From an uncultured Rhodospirillales bacterium (GTDB taxonomy: Bacteria; Pseudomonadota; Alphaproteobacteria; Acetobacterales; Acetobacteraceae): a DNA stretch of 64,000 bases. Each line of letters begins with the position of its first letter. Positions within the stretch are counted from its first letter, which is position 1. The notes below the pieces were generated by a model. The model was not told the DNA's origin. It made no database searches and saw only the letters and a list, made by a program, of their open reading frames with translations. Made by a program: the position numbers and the translations under genes. Positions 35,602 through 44,988 of the stretch are shown here, in pieces. Location of the stretch: the NCBI GenBank assembly GCA_903835235.1, contig CAILMF010000079.1, positions 45,901-109,900 of the forward strand, in the 5' to 3' direction.

Positions 35602-37941
35602 TCAATCGCTGGCGTTGTCCTCATACACCTCGGCCAGCAATTCCAGGGCCGAAAGGGGCACGTCCAGCAGCAGCGCCCGGCGCCGGGCCGCCCCGCGGTC
35701 GGACTTCGCCGGCACGCTGCGGGCGAAGGGGATCACGTTGCCGACCGCCGCGGCCCCGCTGGCCACTGCGTCCACCGTGCCCCAGGTGGCCTCGGCCAAT
35801 TCGCGCTGCACGAGCTGGCGTTGCCGGCTGTCCATCGACCAGGCGAGGTAGGGCGACTGCGCCGTGCGCGCCATGGCCCGTTCCCACAGCCGGCGCGGCA
35901 GCAGCGCCCGCCGACTGTGGCTGCCGGCCACCAGCAGGCGCCAACTGCGCATGAACATCGGCAGCGACGGCACCGGGCGCGAAGGCCGCAGCGTATGGTC
36001 GGGGCAGCGCAGCGCCAGCGCCTTCACGTCTGGATGCACGGGGCCGACCAGCTGGTGCAACTGCCGCACCAGCCCGTTCAGCGCACTGGTGTCGCGGCCG
36101 GGGTCGTATTCCTGTTCCAGCAGCAGCAGGTGGCCGGCGAGGATGCCGGCCAGCGGATTCTCCACCTGGCGCGTCAGCGCGGCCTCCAGCGCAGGGGTCA
36201 GGATGCGGCGACGATCGGCCAGGGCGATGGTCATGGCCGCGATCAGCGCGTCCTGCTCCGCGGTTGGCGCGGGACCCTCGATGGGCCGCATCAGCAGCCC
36301 GACCGGCGGCGGCGGCCGGGCCGGGTCCCGGGCGGGGACCGAGACGTCGAGCGTCCAGCCCCGCGCCAGCACCAGGCTCTGCTCCATCACCGGCGCCGCG
36401 ACGCCCCGCGCGCAACCCAGGCGCCGGCGCAGGAAATAGCCACCAGGCGGCAGGGCAATGGCGCAGCTGACCGTGCGGTCGCAGCCCTTCGCCTCAGCCG
36501 GTGCCTGATCGGAGCGGGGCAGGCCGTCATAGGCCAGGTCCAGCACGGTCAGGCCGTGCGCATCCACCACCGAAATTCCCTGACGGGCCGGGCCGCTCAA
36601 GTGCAGGATGGCTTCGCCCTCGGCCGGGGGAAGCGGGTGCCGCAAGGCGGGCGCGGCAATGGCGGGCGTGCCGAGCGACAGCGTGGTCGCGCGATCCAGC
36701 AGCATCACCTGGTCGTCGACGCGGCGCCCCTGGCGGCAGCGCAGCTTGTACAGCCCCGCCGGCAGCCGCGCGTCCATCCCGCCCATGCCGTGCCGCGCCA
36801 GCGCGAAGCGATGGTCCAGCACGGCATGGATCAGGGTAGGGTCGCTGCTGCGCAGCGTCAGCGGCAGCGGGGTGCCGATCGCTTCCGCAAGTACCGGCGG
36901 GCCGGCCTCGCGCAGCGTGACGTCGGTCGGCCCGGTCACCTCGAAGCCCTGGCGCAGCCCGGCCGCGGGTGCTTCCAGAAGATACAGCCCGGGCGGCAGG
37001 GCAATCTCGTGCACCGCCTGGCCCAGCCCCAGCCCCTCATCCAGCTGCGGCGGCGCGCCGTGCCACAGCCGCAGCGGTCGGCCTTGTGCCGCCGGCGGCA
37101 GCCGCAGCTTCACCGGGTATTGCGGCAGCGCCACGCCTTCGGCCAGCAGCAGCGTAGCGTCGGCCTGGATCACCTCCGGCTCGCGGGCCAGGTCGGCCGC
37201 GGCATCGGCCGGCAACAGCGCTGCCTGGGCATGCCGCAGCCAATCGGCCAGGCTGCGGCCGGTAACCTGGCCATGCGGGTCCAAGGCGGCGCCGCGCAGC
37301 CCTTCCAGCAGGGCCCAGGTCAAAGCGCCATGCGGCCGGCCGAAGCGCTGCGGCGGCTGCACGATGGCGGGCTGGAATGGCCGCCGCGCTGCCAGCGCGA
37401 CCATGCCGGCGCCGACCGCCGGCGGCCCGCTGGGCAGGGGCGGTGGTTCCCGCCGCGCCAGGTAGGCCGGGTTGTCCAGGCCGCAATCCAGCCAGAGCAC
37501 CGCCTGGTGGAACATGCCGCTGAGCTGTGCCCAGGCGAGCCAGGCATTGGCCAGCAGGGGGGCGCCGGGCCTCACCGGCGTGCCCGGGCGGTACCTCCCG
37601 GGCAGGCAGGCCTGGCCCGACATGTAGAGGGTCAGCCGCCGGCCGATCCGCGGGCCGCGCCCGGCCACGACATTGCGGCGCGACTGCGCCTCCATCTCGG
37701 CCAGCACGGCTTCCAGCTGCGTCAACAGCGGCCGCGTCGTCACCCGGCGCGGCGCCGCGCCAACCTCCGGTGCCAGGCAATGCACCCGCTCCGGCGCCAG
37801 CCGCCCGCCGGCGGGGTGCAGCAGCCAGGCGCGCATGGCCGCAACGTCATGGGCAACCCGGCCGAACTCCGCCAGGTGCTCACCACCGGGCACGCCAGCG
37901 CGCGGCAGGCCGACAAGGATGGCAAAGTCGGTATCGGACAT
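35602..37941 (-). CDS. Caspase-like (peptidase C14 fold) protein with missing catalytic His
   Basis: 779 aa, no signal peptide or clear membrane segment. Residues 1-250 read as a caspase/metacaspase domain: FAILVGLPRAG at the first strand, VAHDVAAMRAWLL helix, RRLTLYMSGQAC at 101-112, AVLWLDCGLDN at 147-157, and GALTWALLEGLRGAALDPHGQVTGRSLADWL at about 210-240, which mirrors the FTYALLEGL-type block of prokaryotic caspases. The dyad position SGHG is SGQ (Gln110 instead of His), while the Cys (Cys153 after Asp) is kept. It is thus probably proteolytically weak or inactive. The remaining 530 residues have beta-rich repeats (LPPGLYLLEAP, LPAGLYKLRC, LPPGGYFLRR), then a helical tail. It starts 12 bp after the 192-aa gene, forming a two-gene operon under the CAGCGTGA operator. 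Confidence 0.7.
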   Translation of the reverse strand: MSDTDFAILVGLPRAGVPGGEHLAEFGRVAHDVAAMRAWLLHPAGGRLAPERVHCLAPEVGAAPRRVTTRPLLTQLEAVLAEMEAQSRRNVVAGRGPRIGRRLTLYMSGQACLPGRYRPGTPVRPGAPLLANAWLAWAQLSGMFHQAVLWLDCGLDNPAYLARREPPPLPSGPPAVGAGMVALAARRPFQPAIVQPPQRFGRPHGALTWALLEGLRGAALDPHGQVTGRSLADWLRHAQAALLPADAAADLAREPEVIQADATLLLAEGVALPQYPVKLRLPPAAQGRPLRLWHGAPPQLDEGLGLGQAVHEIALPPGLYLLEAPAAGLRQGFEVTGPTDVTLREAGPPVLAEAIGTPLPLTLRSSDPTLIHAVLDHRFALARHGMGGMDARLPAGLYKLRCRQGRRVDDQVMLLDRATTLSLGTPAIAAPALRHPLPPAEGEAILHLSGPARQGISVVDAHGLTVLDLAYDGLPRSDQAPAEAKGCDRTVSCAIALPPGGYFLRRRLGCARGVAAPVMEQSLVLARGWTLDVSVPARDPARPPPPVGLLMRPIEGPAPTAEQDALIAAMTIALADRRRILTPALEAALTRQVENPLAGILAGHLLLLEQEYDPGRDTSALNGLVRQLHQLVGPVHPDVKALALRCPDHTLRPSRPVPSLPMFMRSWRLLVAGSHSRRALLPRRLWERAMARTAQSPYLAWSMDSRQRQLVQRELAEATWGTVDAVASGAAAVGNVIPFARSVPAKSDRGAARRRALLLDVPLSALELLAEVYEDNASD

Positions 37942-37953
37942 CGTCGGCTGGGC

Positions 37954-38532
37954 TCAGGCTGCCGTCACGCCGATGCCGCGTTCGACGAACTCGCCGAGCC
38001 AGGGGCGCCGATAGGCATTGATGCTCCAGGCCCTGGCGCCTTCGGCCCCTTCGGGCGGGCAGGGCACGTCGGCGCAGAGCGGCACCCCATTGCGGCGGCC
38101 ACGCATGTGGGCGTGGCGGCCGGCGGCGACCAGCCGCAGCATGCCGGTGGGCCCGACCAGGCGCACGAAGCCATCGGTTGGCAGGAACATGCCCGCCACC
38201 GGCATGTCGGCTGGCAGGTGGCGCAGCAGCAGGAAGCAGGGCTCCAGCGCCGGGCCGGCGGTGCGCACGCCGAAGAAGGTCTCGCGCGGTTGCAGGTTGC
38301 CGGGTGCGGCGCCTTCCAGCGACGCCGGCTGCCCGGTGCGGGACAGGCTGAGATACTCCGCCGAGAGCCCCCAGCGGGAGACGATGACCCATTCGGCCCG
38401 GGGCGCCGCTGCCTCGAACGGCGCGCCATAGGGTGCATCCGACATCTCCGCGCGCATGGCGACCACGAAGGCCTCGGCGACGCGCCGTTCGCTCAGGCTC
38501 ATGGCCTGCTTTTCGGGAGGGAATCCGTCCAT
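37954..38532 (-). CDS. Hypothetical protein, first gene of caspase-like operon
   Basis: 192 aa, not recognised. It is mixed alpha/beta, with a helical start (SLSERRVAEAFVVAMRAEM) followed by short strands such as AEWVIVSRWGL, CFLLLRHLP and GFVRLVGPTGMLRLV. There are three Cys (one mid-protein, two in PLCADVPCPP) and no signal or membrane segment. ATG 38532 gives this length; ATG 38502 is an alternative that leaves more room for a promoter. It is translated just ahead of the caspase-like gene (12-bp gap) and is probably its partner. The region upstream holds the four-copy operator. Confidence 0.7.
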   Translation of the reverse strand: MDGFPPEKQAMSLSERRVAEAFVVAMRAEMSDAPYGAPFEAAAPRAEWVIVSRWGLSAEYLSLSRTGQPASLEGAAPGNLQPRETFFGVRTAGPALEPCFLLLRHLPADMPVAGMFLPTDGFVRLVGPTGMLRLVAAGRHAHMRGRRNGVPLCADVPCPPEGAEGARAWSINAYRRPWLGEFVERGIGVTAA

Positions 38533-38551
38533 GGGGGAAGCCTGCCGCCGG

Positions 38552-38608
38552 CAGCGTGAGCCCAGCGTGAATTCCGCGGTTGTATCGAATCACGCTGGAC
38601 TCACGCTG
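38552..38608. promoter_or_regulatory. Divergent operator: two inverted pairs of CAGCGTGA, 11-bp period (putative SARP boxes)
   Basis: CAGCGTGA begins at 38552 and 38563; the complement TCACGCTG begins at 38590 and 38601. Each pair has an 11-bp period, and the pairs face each other across a 19-bp spacer (38571-38589) that contains TTGTATCGAA, usable as a -10 region in either direction. SARP regulators bind direct heptamer repeats spaced 11 bp on one face of the helix (family knowledge), and a SARP-type gene lies 2.4 kb away. The site separates the 192-aa/caspase-like operon from the peroxidase/139-aa operon. Which pair serves which promoter is not decidable from sequence. Confidence 0.7.
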
Positions 38609-38650
38609 GGTTGAACAGACTGCCGCTCCGGTTCGAGGAGAGGCACAACG

Positions 38651-40348
38651 ATGCAGGCGCATGGCGGCGCGGTCCGGTCCTGCCCGTTCAGCGGGCATGC
38701 GGCGCAGGACGGGATGGCGGTGCAACCGCCGGCGAATGGCGCGACCACGCCGGCAGGGTTCCGCCATTTCCTCGGCGCGCCAACCCTGGCGCAGCGCTTT
38801 CAGGTGGACGGCGAGGACCCGCGGCTTTCCGCCACCGCGCTGGCCACGCTGCGGCGCCGGCTGCGCGGTGTTGCCATGCTGATGGGCAACCGCGACGAGG
38901 AATGGCCGGATAACCCCGACCTGCCCGCGGGCTACACCTACACCCTGCAATTCCTGGCGCATGACCTGGTGCATTCCAGCCTGCCGGTCTGGGCCAGCCA
39001 TGGCGGCGGCGCCGAGGTGGAGAACCTGCGCACCCGCACCCTGCGGCTGGACACGCTGTACGGCAGCGGCCCCACCGGCTGCCCGTTTCCCTTTGCGCCG
39101 GATGACCCGCAGGACCAGAGCCGCAGCCGCTTCCGCATGTCGCGCATCGGGCCGTTCGACCCGAATACGCCGGCGCAGGAGAGCGACTACCGCGACATCG
39201 GCCGTGCCAGCACGCTTGGCACCAGCGGCGGCACGGATGGCTTCGCCGAGGCCCTGGTGGCGGACCAGCGCAACGACAGCCATTCGCTGATCTCGCAGGT
39301 CACCTCGCTGTTCCAACTGCTGCACAACGCGCTGGTGGCGATGCAGCCGGAAGGCAATACCGCGACCATCGGGCACCGCGTGCGCGGCCACAACCTGCGC
39401 TTCGCCGTGGCGCGGGAAGCCACGACGCTGATCTGGCGCCACCTGGTCCGGACCGACATCCTGCCGCGCATCCTGCACCCGGCGGTGCGGGAGCTCTACG
39501 CCGCCGGCGCGCCGCTGCTGGAGGCTGCGGCCGAGCCAGGCATTCCGCTGGAGTTCACCCACGGCGCCTTCCGCTTCGGCCACGCCATGGCGCGGGACAG
39601 CTACCATTTCGGCGACGCCGAGGAGCCGCTGCCGCTGGGCACCACGCTGCGGCAATCCTCCGGCCGCAGCCCGGACCTGATGCCGATCCGCCGCATCTGG
39701 GTGGCGCAGTGGTCGCGCTTCTTCCGGCTGGAGGGCCAGCAGCAGCCCAACCTCAGCAAGCGGATCGGACCGCAGATGAGCGGGAATTTCGTCACCGACG
39801 GGCTGTTCGACCCGGTGGCGGAAGGCGACCCCTGGGGCCTGGCCTATCGCGACCTGATCAGCGCCGGCCTGGCCGGGCTGCATTCGGTGGACAGCCTCTG
39901 TGCCCGGGTCCTGCAACTGCGCCCCGAACTCGCCCGGCATTCCCCCATGCTGGCCGACCGTGCGGCGCGGCAGCAGGCGCTGATCGGCTGGCTCGGCCGG
40001 CGCCCCCGCGTCAGCCGGCTCGGCGCCGCCGATATCGCCGCGCTGGCGGTGGAGCCGCCGCTACCTTTCTACGTGATGTTCGAAGCCGAACGCGAAGCCG
40101 AGGGCAGGCACCTCGGCATCCTCGGCTCCCTGATCGTCGCCGAAACGCTGCATGGCGCGATGGCACGAGACCCGCTGCCGGCGGAATACGGCGGCGGCGA
40201 CCTGGCGACCCGGCTGGACAGGCTGTGCGCCGAATGGCTGGGCGCCTTCCGCTTCCGGCCCCTGCCGGCCGTGGACGACATGGCCGGCCTGGTTGGCTTC
40301 CTGGCCCGGCACTACCGCCTGGAGCAGGTCGACCCGCCCTTCATCTGA
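38651..40348 (+). CDS. Animal-type haem peroxidase family protein
   Basis: 565 aa. The distal His motif reads LQFLAHDLVHSS (about 100-111), with further family marks TSLFQLLHNALVA, FAVAREATTLIWRHLVRTDILPRIL (about 250-275) and the proximal His in EFTHGAFRFGHAMARDSY (about 302-319). This is the An_peroxidase fold (myeloperoxidase/cyclooxygenase superfamily). There is no Sec signal; the N-terminus has RSCPFSGHAAQDG. It would oxidise halides, phenols or lipids with peroxide, substrate unknown. ATG 38651 is preceded by GAGGAGAGGC. It is followed after 40 bp by the 139-aa gene in the same operon and lies 42 bp beyond the last CAGCGTGA-type repeat. Confidence 0.88.
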   Translation: MQAHGGAVRSCPFSGHAAQDGMAVQPPANGATTPAGFRHFLGAPTLAQRFQVDGEDPRLSATALATLRRRLRGVAMLMGNRDEEWPDNPDLPAGYTYTLQFLAHDLVHSSLPVWASHGGGAEVENLRTRTLRLDTLYGSGPTGCPFPFAPDDPQDQSRSRFRMSRIGPFDPNTPAQESDYRDIGRASTLGTSGGTDGFAEALVADQRNDSHSLISQVTSLFQLLHNALVAMQPEGNTATIGHRVRGHNLRFAVAREATTLIWRHLVRTDILPRILHPAVRELYAAGAPLLEAAAEPGIPLEFTHGAFRFGHAMARDSYHFGDAEEPLPLGTTLRQSSGRSPDLMPIRRIWVAQWSRFFRLEGQQQPNLSKRIGPQMSGNFVTDGLFDPVAEGDPWGLAYRDLISAGLAGLHSVDSLCARVLQLRPELARHSPMLADRAARQQALIGWLGRRPRVSRLGAADIAALAVEPPLPFYVMFEAEREAEGRHLGILGSLIVAETLHGAMARDPLPAEYGGGDLATRLDRLCAEWLGAFRFRPLPAVDDMAGLVGFLARHYRLEQVDPPFI

Positions 40349-40388
40349 GCAACCCCTTTACCCCCCGAGAGAAAGGACTTCTCCCCCC

Positions 40389-40808
40389 ATGTACAATCCC
40401 CTCGAGCCCATCAACATCGCCGCCATCAACTATGAGAACTGGGGCCGCCTGGTGAAGACCTGGTCCACCGGCCGCAGCTACTTCGAAGACGGCACGGTCT
40501 ATCCGATCCCGTCCTCGCTGGAGGAAATGCAGGAGCAGCTGGACGCGGTGCAGTCCGGCCTGAAGCTGCCCAAGCGGATGAAGCACCTGCAGGTGGTGCA
40601 CATGAACTCCGACACCATGACCCTGCGCCTGCCGCCGGCGAACCTGGTGGAGGCTTCCGAGCGCCGCCTGGAGAAGGAGGATTATACTTTTCCGCCGTTC
40701 TACGACGAGGCCTACCAGCACCAGCCGGCGCCGCTGCAGACGCATGAGGACCGGATGAAGTTCCACGCCCGCCGCATCGGCGACTACACCATCGCCAACT
40801 GCGTCTGA
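40389..40808 (+). CDS. Small hypothetical protein, peroxidase operon partner
   Basis: 139 aa, not recognised. It is soluble and rich in charged and aromatic residues (NYENWGRLVKTWSTGRSYF near 14-32; FPPFYDEAYQHQPAP near 100-114) with no signal peptide. The single Cys is Cys138, next to the last residue (IANCV). That position is unusual and could be a modification or metal/haem contact point. AAAGGAC lies thirteen bases upstream of the ATG, and an extremely strong hairpin includes the stop codon. It could be an accessory or a substrate of the neighbouring peroxidase or of the YcaO protein (inference only). Confidence 0.75.
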   Translation: MYNPLEPINIAAINYENWGRLVKTWSTGRSYFEDGTVYPIPSSLEEMQEQLDAVQSGLKLPKRMKHLQVVHMNSDTMTLRLPPANLVEASERRLEKEDYTFPPFYDEAYQHQPAPLQTHEDRMKFHARRIGDYTIANCV

Positions 40809-40845
40809 TACCAGCGGTCAAGTTCCTTGACCGCTGGTATCAGAC
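40803..40845 (+). terminator. 20-bp perfect hairpin at the end of the peroxidase operon
   Basis: GTCTGATACCAGCGGTCAAG (40803-40822) pairs perfectly with 40826-40845 around a TTC loop. It contains the stop codon of the 139-aa gene. The downstream run is ACTTTCC, so it is terminator-like without a true T-tract. It also forms the left end of a mosaic repeat. Confidence 0.65.
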
Positions 40846-40990
40846 TTTCCTGGCCCTCAGACGCCGGGCGGAAACCTCCGGCTTCCTTGGCTTTCGCCGC
40901 ACTGGCGGCGGGCGCCATTCGGCGCCTCGGCACGAGGCCAAGCCTCGTGCCGCTGGCATGAGAGGCACGAAGGTGTCGCCTTCGTGCGCT
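40803..40990. repeat. Mosaic hairpin repeat, copy 2
   Basis: 188-bp counterpart of 18313-18497. Shared blocks in the same order are CTGATACCA at an end, CCTCAGACGCCGGGCGG, CTTGGC, CGCCATTCGGCGCCTCGGC and a GCACGAAGG/CCTTCGTGC hairpin (40965-40987). A GGCACGAGGC/GCCTCGTGCC hairpin lies at 40929-40951. It fills the gap between the convergent 139-aa and SARP genes. Like copy 1, it touches a stop codon. Confidence 0.7.
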
Positions 40991-40997
40991 CCAGAAA

Positions 40998-42989
40998 TTA
41001 CCAATCCCCGTGCCGGCGTCCCGCGGTGGGCAACCCCGCCGCGGCGACGCCGTCGCGCAGCTTTTCCCAGTCCCGCGCATCTGCGATGGGATACAGGTGC
41101 AGCAGCCAGCCCATGATCGCCTCGTCGGTCGGCGGCATGGCGCCGAACCAGTGGTCCCGCACCGTGCGCAGGAAGCGCGTGGCCGAAGCCGCCGCCTCGG
41201 TGTGCCGGCCCAGATTGGCCAGCGCCGCGGCACGCCAGGCCGGCAGGGTGCGGATCACGTCCTCGGCCCGGTCGCAGGCTTCCAGCGTGCCCAGGTAGTC
41301 GCCGCGCAGGTAGCGCAGCGTGACCTGGTAGGCCCAGTGCAGCGTCGTCGGCAGCAGCGTCATCTCCATGGATTGCGCCGCCAGCTCCTCGGCCCGCTCA
41401 TGCTGGCCGTAGAAGCAGTAGAACAGCGCCGACGACATCAGCACCCAGGAATCCAGCGGGTTCAGGTCGGTCGCCAGGCGCATGTGCACTTCGGCCTGGA
41501 CATGCCGGCCAGACATGGCCAGCGCCCAGCCCAGGCAGAGCTGAGAGCGCGCATCGGTTGCGTCCAACTGCGCGGCGCGCTTGGCATTCTCCAGCGCGCG
41601 CGCCTCCTTCAGTCGGTCCCGCCGGGTGCCTGGCCGCATGATGTGCGCGCCGCTGTCCATCTGCGCCAGCGTGCTCCAGGCCGGGGCGAAATGCGGTGAT
41701 TCCGCCACGGTTTCCCGCAGCAGCAGCAGGTTGCGCTCCCACACATCGCCACGGAAGCCGAAGATCATCGCCTGGCTGCGCAGCCAGCGGTCGAAGGCGG
41801 GCAGCGAGACATCCGGCTCATGCGCCAGCCGCGCCATGCGGGCGCTGGAGACCTGCAGGTTCAGCGCCACCGCCATGCGGCGGACGATGCGGCTTTGCGT
41901 GTCGAACCAGCCTGCCAGCGTCAGGTCGATCCGCTCGCTCCAGACGCAGATACCGCTCTCATCCTCGGACAGCGTCAGCACCATGCTGATGCCGCGCCCG
42001 GCCTGGTAGGCGGTGGCGGCGATGCGGTAGCGCGCCGAGACCCGCTGCGCGGTCTGCGCCGGTGGCGGCAAGGCCGGGCCATCCACCACGAACCATTCGC
42101 GGAACCGCACCAGGCAGCCCAGCAGGTCGTGGCGGAAGCCCTGGGTCAGGTGCTGCTGCTCCGGCCCGACGCCGTTCAGCAGGAAAGGCTCCACCAGCAG
42201 CGCGATGCGGGACGGCATCCCGGGTGCCGGCCGGCCCGGCGGGGGCGCCGCGGCGGGCGTTGCCGGTTCCAGCCGGCCGAGCTTGATCTCGGCCACCAGC
42301 TTCTGCGTGGCAGCGGTCGGTTCGCTGTCGAATTCCTTGTCCAGCACCTGCCAAAGCGTTTCATAGGTGCGCAGCGCGGCGGAGGTGTCGCCGGCCTCGG
42401 CCTGGCTGCGCATCAGGCTGCGGCAGGCTTCCTCATGCGTCGGGTCCAGCTGCAACAGCGCCTGTGCCACCCGCTGGCGTTCCGCCGCCGGCAAGGACAG
42501 GTCGGCCAGGCGGGGTTCCAGGGCACGGTTCAGGCGGTCCTGCAGGGCCTGGCGAATGGTCAGCAGCCACACCCTGAAGGCCGGGTCCAGCCCGTCCAGC
42601 CCCTGCAGCAGGGTTTCGTGCAGCAGTGGCGTGTTCAGCAGCAGGTCCGGCACGCGGCCGGCCTCCACCGCATCCAGCATCTCGGCATGGTCGGTCCGCA
42701 CGGTCTCGGGCGGCAGCACCAGGCTCATGCGATCAGGGTGCAGGTGGGCAAAGCCGGCGGATTCCAGCGCCTCGCGCAGCTCCCGCAGCGCCTGCCGCAG
42801 CGATGCCCGGGCCTGATCCTCGTTGCTTTCGCTCCACAGCAGCCCGACCAGCCGCTCCCGCGTTTCCTCCCCGGTGCCGCTGATGGCCAGGTAGCCCAGC
42901 ACGGCGCGCGCCTTGCGGCTCCGCAGGCGAATCTCCCGCCCGTCGTAGCGAAGCTGCAAGGGGCCGAACAGGCTGACCTGAAGCGTCAT
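40998..42989 (-). CDS. SARP-family (BTAD) transcriptional regulator with TPR region
   Basis: About 663 aa. The N-terminal OmpR-type winged helix (SLFGPLQLRYDGREIRLRSRKARAVLGYLA, then LVGLLWSE and ARASLRQALRELREAL, residues 4-85) is followed by the bacterial transcriptional activation domain (about 95-250) with LQLDPTHEEACRSLMRSQAEAGDTSAALRTYE. A TolB/adenylate-cyclase-associated-like segment comes next (YRIAATAYQAGRGISMVLTLSEDESGICVWSE, about 325-355). TPR-type helices (about 420-640, such as LCLGWALAMSGRHVQAEVHMRLATDLNP) close the protein. ATG 42989 is the last possible start before the domain; ATG 43043 would add a basic extension. SARP proteins are best known in actinobacterial antibiotic clusters. 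It lies 94 bp after the YcaO gene on the same strand. Confidence 0.88.
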   Translation of the reverse strand: MTLQVSLFGPLQLRYDGREIRLRSRKARAVLGYLAISGTGEETRERLVGLLWSESNEDQARASLRQALRELREALESAGFAHLHPDRMSLVLPPETVRTDHAEMLDAVEAGRVPDLLLNTPLLHETLLQGLDGLDPAFRVWLLTIRQALQDRLNRALEPRLADLSLPAAERQRVAQALLQLDPTHEEACRSLMRSQAEAGDTSAALRTYETLWQVLDKEFDSEPTAATQKLVAEIKLGRLEPATPAAAPPPGRPAPGMPSRIALLVEPFLLNGVGPEQQHLTQGFRHDLLGCLVRFREWFVVDGPALPPPAQTAQRVSARYRIAATAYQAGRGISMVLTLSEDESGICVWSERIDLTLAGWFDTQSRIVRRMAVALNLQVSSARMARLAHEPDVSLPAFDRWLRSQAMIFGFRGDVWERNLLLLRETVAESPHFAPAWSTLAQMDSGAHIMRPGTRRDRLKEARALENAKRAAQLDATDARSQLCLGWALAMSGRHVQAEVHMRLATDLNPLDSWVLMSSALFYCFYGQHERAEELAAQSMEMTLLPTTLHWAYQVTLRYLRGDYLGTLEACDRAEDVIRTLPAWRAAALANLGRHTEAAASATRFLRTVRDHWFGAMPPTDEAIMGWLLHLYPIADARDWEKLRDGVAAAGLPTAGRRHGDW

Positions 42990-43083
42990 GCGCCCTGGTT
43001 CAGGCCGCCGGCTTCGGGCTGCGGTGGGGACATGGGAACGCATGGCAAGCCGGCATCCGTCCTCGCAAGGATTTAACAATGCG

Positions 43084-44370
43084 TTACATCAGCGGAATTC
43101 CGCCAGTTAGGCAATCGCCTCCTCCGGTTTTCGCGATCATCGCGGCAAGGCGTGGCCCGACCGATGCGCTGGGTTCCATTTCCAGGCCCGGGCAGAGCAC
43201 CCGGCACACCGGCACGCCCAGGGCCGGGCGGGTCAATGGCAGCAGCAGCGGGTCGAAGCCGCGCGCTGCGAGCGCCGCCACCAGCCCGGCCAGCGCCGCC
43301 GCGGCGGTGGTTTCGCCCGGCGGCGGGGCCGGTGCGGCCGGCTCGCCGAGCGGATGCAGCAGCGCGCAGCGCGCCGCATGGATGCCGGTGAACCGAGCCT
43401 GGTGCGAGCGGTCGCGCGGGTTCAGCGACGCCTCGCCGCCTTCCTCCCGCTTCGCAGCCACCACCGCCAGGGCCAGCTCCATCTGGCACAGTTCCAGCAG
43501 TGCCGCCCGGCAGGCCGCGGCCAGGCCAGGCCGTGCCGCCAGGCCGCAGCAGAAGCCGGCGCCATCCGGCCCGACCGAGACCGCCGCCACCGCCGGCAGG
43601 CCAAGATCCGTCGTGATGTCCAGCAGCCAGCTGCGCCGGCCGGTGGCGCCGCGCCGCAGCCGTGCCAGCAGCGTTGCCGCCCCGGCCAGCGCCGGGTTTT
43701 CCAGCGCCAGGGGCCGGGGCCGCGCCCCACCACGCCACCACAGCGCGGCAGCGTCGCGCTCCACCAACTCCAGCAGGCCGTGCAGCGCCGCGGCATCGGC
43801 GCTGGGCCCGGCGGCGCAGCCGATGCTCAGCGGCCAGGGCGGCGTGGTAGCAGGGCGGCGGAAGCACAGCCCGGCCGGCACCCAGGCGGTGCCGCCATCC
43901 CGCAGCCGGCGCACCGGCATCCAGCCTGGCCCGGCATCGCGCCATGCCGCCGGCAGCGCCGCGGCGGCGCCCACGGGTAGGTCGCTGCGCTGCTGCGCCA
44001 GATCGGCGGTGGTTTCCACCTGGCTGAGCAGCTCCAGCCCTTCGCCGATGCAGGATTCCAGCGCTTCCAGGGGGGCCAGCCCGGTGCCGGAGACGCCGAT
44101 CAGCCCCAGGCCGGGTGTGGCAGCCAGGCGATCCGGCGCAACCTCGGCGCCGAAGACCACCATGCCCGGGGCCGCCGGTGCCTCAAGCTGGAACAGCCGC
44201 TCGAACCCAGCCGCCGCCTGGAACATCCGCGCCCGATGCTGGACCTTGGCATCCACCGGCCCGCCATGCGGCAGCTCCAGCCAGGACAGCAGGTCCGCAA
44301 CTTCGGCCTCGACCGGCTGGGCCGGCGCCAGCAGCGCCGCCGCCAACGCGGCGAAGATCGGCTCGGCCAT
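43084..44370 (-). CDS. YcaO-domain protein (ATP-dependent cyclodehydratase/thioamidation family)
   Basis: 428 aa. YcaO landmarks are VSGTGLAPLEALESCIGEGLELLSQ (about 93-117, first ATP/Mg Glu residues), SIGCAAGPSADAAALHGLLELVERDAAALWWRGG (about 182-215, E-x-x-E-R-D), and LLELCQMELALAVVAAKREE (about 290-309). A C-terminal part with LGVPVCRVLCPGLEMEPS follows. The family activates peptide amides with ATP to form azolines, thioamides or related modifications. The typical partners (ThiF/E1-like, TfuA, dehydrogenase) are absent in the window. ATG 44370 is six bases after the stop of the histidine-kinase-like gene, so the genes are coupled. Confidence 0.87.
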   Translation of the reverse strand: MAEPIFAALAAALLAPAQPVEAEVADLLSWLELPHGGPVDAKVQHRARMFQAAAGFERLFQLEAPAAPGMVVFGAEVAPDRLAATPGLGLIGVSGTGLAPLEALESCIGEGLELLSQVETTADLAQQRSDLPVGAAAALPAAWRDAGPGWMPVRRLRDGGTAWVPAGLCFRRPATTPPWPLSIGCAAGPSADAAALHGLLELVERDAAALWWRGGARPRPLALENPALAGAATLLARLRRGATGRRSWLLDITTDLGLPAVAAVSVGPDGAGFCCGLAARPGLAAACRAALLELCQMELALAVVAAKREEGGEASLNPRDRSHQARFTGIHAARCALLHPLGEPAAPAPPPGETTAAAALAGLVAALAARGFDPLLLPLTRPALGVPVCRVLCPGLEMEPSASVGPRLAAMIAKTGGGDCLTGGIPLM

Positions 44371-44376
44371 GGCGGC

Positions 44377-44988
44377 TCAGGCCGCCTCGCGTGGCCAGCG
44401 CAGCAGCAGGCGTCCCGGCCCCGCCGGTTCGGCCCCCAGCGCGGTGAAGCCTGCCAGCACCGCCTCGCTCGGCCCGGGCACCCCTTCCGGCCAGCCGACC
44501 ACCAGCTGCACCGCGCCATCGGGCTGGGTCAGGGCGATCCCCAGCGTGGTGCCACGCGGCAGGGTGGCCGCTGCCTCCCGCACCAGGTCCAGCAGCGCTT
44601 CCTCCAGCGCGGCGCGGTCCAGCCGCACCTTCCAGGCCTCGCCCTCCGGCAGGTCCAGGGCCAGGGCGCCCGGCGCCGCCAGCAGCAGGCGCAGCACCGG
44701 GGCCAGCAGGCGCAGGCCTTCCAGCGGTGCGGCGACAACCTCCTCCGGCACCGGTCGGCGGCTCAGCGTCAGGATCGCGCGCATCCCATCCTCAAGCCGC
44801 TTCGCCGCCTGCTGGATACGGTCCAGCTGGCGCTGCGGACCACCTTCGGCCGCGGTGCGCTTCAGCAATTCCACGTTGGCCAGGATCACGGTCAGCAGGT
44901 TGTTCAGGTCGTGCTGCACCGGTCGCGCCATGGCCGCCAGGGTTGCCAGCCGTCGCGCCTGCCTGTGGAGTGCCGCATCGTCGATCAT
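44377..44988 (-). CDS. Small histidine-kinase-like protein with degenerate ATPase half
   Basis: About 203 aa, no sensor or membrane part. The dimerisation/phosphoacceptor helix reads ARPVQHDLNNLLTVILANVELL with His26, close to the AHDFNNLLTVI-type H-box of hybrid kinases, followed by a second helix RLEDGMRAILTLSRR. The C-terminal ATPase-like part has LEEALLDLVREAAATLPRGT, but Glu138 stands where the invariant N-box Asn belongs, and no DxGxG box follows. It may be a phosphotransfer protein or pseudokinase that modulates a partner. ATG 44988 is chosen (GAGGATCACCCGAG upstream); a longer frame reaches 45177 inside the PBP gene. It is coupled with the YcaO gene. Confidence 0.75.
   Translation of the reverse strand: MIDDAALHRQARRLATLAAMARPVQHDLNNLLTVILANVELLKRTAAEGGPQRQLDRIQQAAKRLEDGMRAILTLSRRPVPEEVVAAPLEGLRLLAPVLRLLLAAPGALALDLPEGEAWKVRLDRAALEEALLDLVREAAATLPRGTTLGIALTQPDGAVQLVVGWPEGVPGPSEAVLAGFTALGAEPAGPGRLLLRWPREAA

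Follow-up and report, generated by a model that had tools for sequence, protein, structure and literature searches.

A conserved gene cluster encoding YcaO, haem peroxidase-like, SARP-type and small tail-bearing proteins: a candidate RiPP-like pathway in Acetobacteraceae and Bradyrhizobium

The gene cluster described here lies at positions 35602-44988 of a 64,000-nucleotide stretch of contig CAILMF010000079.1 from an uncultured Rhodospirillales bacterium of the family Acetobacteraceae (we refer to the whole stretch as the window). All seven open reading frames (ORFs) that a first-pass annotation had reported in this region are present as described, and they form three units (Table 1): a minus-strand unit with HisKA-like, YcaO and SARP genes, a plus-strand unit in which a peroxidase gene is followed by a gene for a 139-amino-acid (139-aa) protein, and a second minus-strand unit in which a 192-aa gene is followed by a 779-aa caspase-like gene. 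The gap between the HisKA-like and YcaO genes is 6 nt and that between the 192-aa and 779-aa genes 12 nt. The SARP ORF opens 4 nt past the YcaO gene, with an uncertain start, since relatives align from residue 5-6 or from residue 28-32. Pfam domains were matched in the YcaO (E-value 4e-51), SARP (BTAD, 6.8e-13) and HisKA-like (HisKA, 4.2e-9) proteins of the window, and scans of the family libraries found no model above cut-off for the 779-, 192- and 139-aa proteins. The terminators that had been proposed to delimit the units fared less well: the inverted repeat that lies where the 139-aa and SARP genes converge is perfect, but a consensus terminator scan did not list it, and the total of that scan was itself at chance level (4 found, 2.6 expected).

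Table 1. Genes and predicted sequence elements of the cluster, with positions in the window.
Feature	Position	Strand	Remarks
139-aa protein	40389..40808	+	Candidate ribosomal precursor; NHLP-like segment at residues 56-95; conserved tail HARRIGDYTIANCV, including Cys138
Peroxidase	38651..40348	+	565-aa animal-type haem peroxidase-like protein; H104, R207 and H311 invariant (11/11)
SARP	40998..43079	-	SARP-type regulator with BTAD and TPR-like part; candidate dedicated activator; start position uncertain
YcaO	43084..44370	-	428-aa stand-alone YcaO; E110/E113, E201/E204/R205/D206 and E293/Q296 invariant (12/12)
192-aa protein	37954..38532	-	Predicted antiparallel beta-barrel; relatives in 34/44 loci
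Pseudo-caspase	35602..37941	-	779 aa; catalytic dyad lost; within the cluster seen in the window genus only
HisKA-domain protein	44377..44988	-	203 aa; conserved H26; ATPase part degenerate by eye; within the cluster seen in the window genus only
SARP-type box	38555..38570	-	TCACGCTGGGCTCACG; faces the 192-aa/pseudo-caspase unit
SARP-type box	38590..38605	+	TCACGCTGGACTCACG; 45 nt upstream of the peroxidase start
Inverted repeat	40803..40845		Perfect, 20 bp; at the convergence of the 139-aa and SARP genes; possible bidirectional terminator

A profile of the 139-aa family, searched against the GTDB collection of 84,980 species genomes, found 43 distinct loci, mostly in Bradyrhizobium and Acetobacteraceae. 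By title, 25 are from Bradyrhizobium, 11 from Acetobacteraceae (the window genus, Belnapia, Craurococcus, Rhodovarius and one more) and 7 from other sources (Xanthobacteraceae, Hyphomicrobiaceae, Methylobacteriaceae, Hyphomicrobiales and three with vaguer titles). Genome G040 (locus L031) was added to make a set of 44 loci. On the same contig as the 139-aa gene we found the peroxidase in 44/44 loci, the SARP in 43/44, the YcaO in 40/44 and the 192-aa family in 34/44, compared with 5/44 for the caspase-like protein, 4/44 for the HisKA-like protein and 4/44 for a methyltransferase; all loci with the caspase-like and HisKA-like genes are of the window genus. The peroxidase and 139-aa genes run in one direction and the SARP and YcaO genes in the opposite one, and the gene order is kept even though identity of the 139-aa protein falls to 32-56%. 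The closest relatives in the named collection are five metagenome genomes (four Acetobacteraceae, one Rhodospirillales) with a 139-aa protein 79-97% identical to that of the window. In five other genomes of the window genus the order of peroxidase, 139-aa, SARP, YcaO, 192-aa, caspase-like and amidohydrolase genes is kept throughout (5/5), with the adjacent amidohydrolase gene fixed in position; the HisKA gene is present in four of these, and the contig of the fifth stops within the YcaO gene. Judged by co-occurrence and order, the conserved core is thus the peroxidase, 139-aa, SARP and YcaO genes, which stay together from Acetobacteraceae to Bradyrhizobium, the pseudo-caspase and degenerate kinase being additions specific to the genus. 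The conservation of the neighbourhood anticipated by the first-pass annotation is borne out for these four genes, but its view of all seven as one unit is not.

Where the YcaO gene is not adjacent, the assemblies differ. In L049 and L059 contig ends intervene, and both genomes hold a YcaO of the cluster type on another contig; the genome of L071 has one elsewhere that is 45% identical to that of L070. The most divergent YcaO that we counted is in L072 (44 bits). We also compared all locus ORFs against each other, ranked the families present in at least 6 loci and inspected the first 60, partly by eye. Among these, no further family was common across groups, and neither was an exporter or protease common to the core. 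Two proteases do recur in the flanks of Bradyrhizobium loci, at 4-6 kb from the 139-aa gene: a trypsin-like/PDZ one in 18 loci and an FtsH-type one in 10 (examples are L048:3419-4519 and L050:4949-6886). We rejected these as core members, as they are not in the core of other groups and no box was seen nearby; they could still serve the cluster.

Conservation of the 139-aa protein is concentrated at its C-terminus, where the consensus is close to HAxRIGDYTIxxCx. A127, R129, G131, Y133 and C138 are present in 44/44 loci, the Cys always being the penultimate residue, and I130, D132, T134 and I135 vary in 1 to 7 of the 44. A wider profile search returned 502 homologues, of which the best 120 were listed. 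The penultimate Cys was found in 125 of the 129 homologues examined (of the other four, two end before it and two read past it), and it is the sole cysteine in 112 of 125 complete homologues. Among the 127 possible windows of thirteen residues, residues 126-138 rank first, with a mean majority fraction of 0.85 (21 representatives, <80% identity). A tail that varies so little suggests a single conserved product and not an antibiotic that diversifies. A second conserved block, WGxLVKxWxTG, lies at residues 18-28. Between the two, residues 56-95 align with the nitrile-hydratase-like (NHLP) leaders of ribosomally synthesized and post-translationally modified peptides (RiPPs) (hhalign score 31.3, P 4.7e-5, probability 68%, 37 columns), compared with maximum scores of 14.7 in 30 column shuffles and 8.1 for the reversed alignment; 25 unrelated alignment pieces from the locus reached at most 17.5 against the 139-aa family and 19.3 against NHLP. 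The protein is predicted to be helical (mean predicted local distance difference test score, pLDDT, 85.9), and its tail helix is included in the confident model.

The two enzymes of the core also keep family hallmarks. The closest solved relatives of the YcaO are the azoline formers TruD and LynD; both carry further domains and are far longer (781 and 775 residues) than the 428 residues found here. The invariant YcaO residues in Table 1 form the ATP site, with roles in ATP binding that we assume from the family. The SagD model scores 112.8 bits on this protein, below its cut-off of 219.25. The peroxidase of the window scores 23.8 bits with the An_peroxidase model, just under the cut-off of 25, and two relatives pass it (L075, 48.9 bits; L071, 25.1 bits); in total, 7/11 family members match, the best at 5e-13. 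D105 is invariant together with the three peroxidase residues of Table 1, of which H104, R207 and H311 are presumably the distal His, the Arg and the proximal His of an animal-type haem peroxidase.

A direct repeat, TCACG-N6-TCACG with 11-bp spacing, precedes the peroxidase gene in 37/41 testable loci (39/41 by a looser pattern); L064, L065, L072 and L073 were excluded from this count because their peroxidase start is truncated away. In 28 of the 37 loci the box sits 334-347 nt upstream of a conserved coding motif. Its density is 1 per 499 nt before the peroxidase gene versus 1 per 24,347 strand-bases elsewhere, and the spacing of 11 between the two words was seen 100 times, whereas no other spacing between 5 and 20 occurred more than 10 times. 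Most loci carry a second copy, which faces the 192-aa or methyltransferase gene. The pattern TCACGCTGNNNTCACG (TCACGCTGN3TCACG) occurs twice in the 5.97-Mb genome of the window, both times in the cluster promoter region; across four Acetobacteraceae genomes, 7/7 matches of this pattern lie in the cluster promoter (reversed control 0), and the sole two matches of the looser pattern in Belnapia rosea are also at the cluster. Each of three Bradyrhizobium genomes contains another 2 to 6 matches away from the cluster (reversed control 0 to 2), which limits clear specificity of the box to the Acetobacteraceae genomes. Repeats of 11 bp are the classical sites of SARPs according to a Streptomyces study (PMC5930380), and we predict that the SARP is a pathway-specific activator with this box as its candidate operator. 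The shared operator sites of the first-pass annotation stand for the two divergent units, each faced by one box (Table 1), but not for the HisKA-YcaO-SARP unit of the window, which no TCACG-N6-TCACG precedes.

Outside the cluster, the box TCACGGTATTGTCACG lies ~180-215 nt downstream of a clpP-like gene (by eye) in all three of these Bradyrhizobium genomes (L154, L155 and L146, at about 1500; the genomes of L044, L041 and L054), and may mark a further SARP target or be fortuitous within a conserved intergenic stretch. Bradyrhizobium loci also have a third box, beside the 192-aa homologue, that is followed by an uncharacterized protein of ~120 residues and then by a Cro/CI-type regulator (L044:14514-15389 and equivalents). 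In Belnapia-type clusters (L031:12179-13189; L038, L039, L040), which have no pseudo-caspase, a methyltransferase-like gene lies between the boxes and the 192-aa homologue. The 192-aa protein itself is predicted to be a ten-strand barrel (pLDDT 81), with weak matches to many unrelated barrels. Structure prediction, which had been proposed for the two proteins without recognizable family, gave a fold for each, but no solved relative for the helical 139-aa protein and only such scattered similarity for the barrel.

On balance, we lean slightly towards a RiPP-like reading of the core: the tail at the C-terminus of the 139-aa protein would be modified by both the YcaO and the predicted haem peroxidase, and a dedicated SARP would control the pathway. 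The first-pass annotation had named modification of Cys138 by the YcaO as one idea. Because this Cys is fixed second from the end and is usually the only one, it is the reading that the sequences support best, the chemistry being one that we infer, as we do every chemical step below, from gene content and conservation together with the motifs and the box. In such a pathway, the SARP would switch on expression of the peroxidase and 139-aa genes, and the 139-aa protein would be made. The YcaO would then use ATP to activate the backbone amide before Cys138, closing a thiazoline by cyclodehydration. The peroxidase would subsequently oxidise the tail, most plausibly at the invariant Tyr133 through a phenoxyl radical and coupling, and it might also oxidise the thiazoline, given that the cluster encodes no flavin dehydrogenase. 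The 192-aa barrel, or the extra methyltransferase of Belnapia-type clusters, might act later or bind the product. Since no exporter or protease common to the core was seen, the product may stay on the protein or be released by other proteases.

Several observations weigh against this pathway. NHLP was the sole leader family compared, and it was picked because a resemblance was suspected. The NCBIfam leader model TIGR03793 matches 0/15 members of the 139-aa family at E-values up to 1; the GG that we would expect at the end of an NHLP leader is found at the matching position in 5/56 sequences, and the window sequence is without it; and the predicted fold has no relative among solved structures. 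For these reasons we call segment 56-95 NHLP-like, by alignment, and not NHLP. The C-terminal PxPxP, which we take to be a feature of azoline-forming YcaO proteins, is absent in 12/12 aligned sequences. At E-values up to 0.1, no RiPP precursor recognition element (RRE), E1/ThiF partner or flavin dehydrogenase was matched in the seven proteins, although a strongly diverged RRE could escape the libraries. L061, from an Acetobacteraceae genome (G039) that is 95% complete, has the peroxidase and 139-aa genes on a contig that ends ~100 bp past the latter, with no YcaO match in the genome. The strict box is missing before the peroxidase gene in L067, L068, L070 and L071 (4/41), and in L067 and L068 so is the loose one. 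Contact of the two enzymes with the 139-aa protein is likewise something that we infer.

Because the peroxidase gene stands beside the 139-aa gene in all 44 loci and no core protease or exporter was seen, the serious alternative is that the peroxidase has the 139-aa protein as its small partner subunit or chaperone, and that YcaO modification of either one completes a working oxidase, with nothing excised and no peptide product. This would fit the persistence of the pair in the YcaO-less genome, the mostly confident model of the 139-aa protein with the tail helix within it, and the missing protease and exporter in the core shared across groups. However, conservation that peaks in the last 13 residues around a fixed penultimate Cys would suit a modified terminus better than a general interface, and the NHLP-like segment fits a precursor, so we regard the partner-subunit explanation as unlikely, though well worth keeping in mind. 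We think it improbable that the cluster is a redox or peroxide stress module, in which the SARP senses a condition and induces the peroxidase, the barrel and the 139-aa protein while the YcaO has a separate, non-peptide role. The constancy of the peroxidase as a partner and the extra box downstream of the clpP-like gene in three Bradyrhizobium genomes are compatible with such a module, but the YcaO is retained in the cluster in 40/44 loci at large divergence, and its closest solved relatives modify peptides.

The defence locus suggested by the first-pass annotation is now very improbable. Caspase-like proteins occur in known defence systems, and distant relatives of the one encoded here keep the His and Cys in 20/21 cases; an anti-phage or abortive-infection locus built on this protein would have to accommodate the loss of both catalytic positions in the copies of the window and its genus (6/6) and the absence of the gene from the cluster outside that genus. 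Furthermore, the PADLOC models gave only a chance-level match, to the TPR-like region of the SARP (E-value 0.017), the Bradyrhizobium 139-aa homologue had no copy in plasmid or phage collections, and the adjacent amidohydrolase gene is fixed in 5/5 genus relatives. Finally, the restriction of the pseudo-caspase and HisKA genes to one genus is what unrelated, chance neighbours might show, but for the four-gene core the same order and orientation in distant genera, the co-occurrence and the shared regulatory box refute chance adjacency, and we give this explanation next to no weight.

The RiPP-like pathway that we favour resembles several known systems in part. The NHLP-leader RiPPs with an azoline-forming YcaO (MprE/MprC; PMC12455567) likewise combine a long folded precursor bearing an NHLP-like segment with a YcaO in the cluster and a Cys as the likely target, but MprC has an RRE domain and a flavin oxidase partner, MprD, whereas we find a stand-alone YcaO and a haem peroxidase-like protein. 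The cluster differs from proteusins in having one precursor per locus with a near-constant tail, and in leaving the curated NHLP model unmatched. With linear azol(in)e peptides and cyanobactins (SagD type, TruD, LynD) it shares a SagD-type YcaO with its ATP motifs kept, but none of the E1/ThiF, RRE and flavin dehydrogenase domains was matched in the seven proteins. Pyrroloquinoline quinone (PQQ) and mycofactocin are RiPP-derived redox cofactors, and, as in this family, their one precursor tail is conserved with few variable residues; here, a YcaO and a haem peroxidase-like protein are encoded instead, and no radical SAM or PqqD-type domain was matched in the seven proteins. As for regulation, Streptomyces SARP clusters (PimR; PMC5930380) similarly have 11-bp direct repeats before the target and the regulator beside its genes, but our predicted site is TCACG-based and belongs to alphaproteobacteria, and the regulator carries a TPR-like part.

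In the titles, abstract openings and passages of the open-licence literature that we searched, neither a pairing of YcaO and haem peroxidase in a peptide pathway nor this cluster was found, and the conserved four-gene core was described nowhere; the passages of PMC8120280 that were examined have no peroxidase in them. An antiSMASH survey of type strains in the Acetobacteraceae reports a YcaO cluster for Roseomonas mucosa alone (PMC8776678). The survey included Belnapia rosea, another strain of which (L038) carries the cluster described here, and standard mining may miss it. More specifically, and only tentatively, we consider it possible, though doubtful, that the product belongs to a new class of ribosomally made natural products whose conservation is that of a cofactor or signal and not that of an antibiotic. 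The 139-aa protein would then be a folded carrier, and the stand-alone YcaO and haem peroxidase would turn its near-invariant RIGDYTIxxC tail into a redox-active group or hormone-like molecule, such as one with a thiazoline at Cys138 and an oxidised Tyr133 that is linked to it or follows it; the SARP would serve this cluster alone. If the RiPP-like pathway itself holds, haem peroxidases would join the enzyme repertoire of RiPP pathways, a YcaO would be acting on a structured protein with no evident RRE, and likely cultivable sources would be Belnapia rosea and Bradyrhizobium, the latter with 25 loci, of which nine have species names. The near-constant tail implies a single conserved molecule of general role, and the box offers a handle on when it is made.

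The two genus-specific genes appear to encode degenerate proteins. We call the 779-aa protein caspase-like because its relative P0151 passes the Peptidase_C14 model (25.2 versus a cut-off of 21.4 bits). Unlike bacterial proteins of that family, the copies of the window genus have lost both catalytic positions in 6/6 cases, reading SGQA or SGLA (His to Gln or Leu) and LDCG or LDCA (Cys to Gly or Ala), which speaks against the death protease proposed at first. Its distant relatives (P0139-P0159) keep both residues in 20 of 21 cases by pattern, with one undecided, so that the window genus appears to hold a dead branch of a live caspase-like family. Among 120 Acetobacteraceae genomes, 3 encode the protein at E-values up to 1e-20, all of the window genus. 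In the HisKA-like protein, encoded upstream of the YcaO gene, H26 is kept in 5/5 copies and the ATPase half looks degenerate by eye; from these features, it could act as a phosphotransfer protein.

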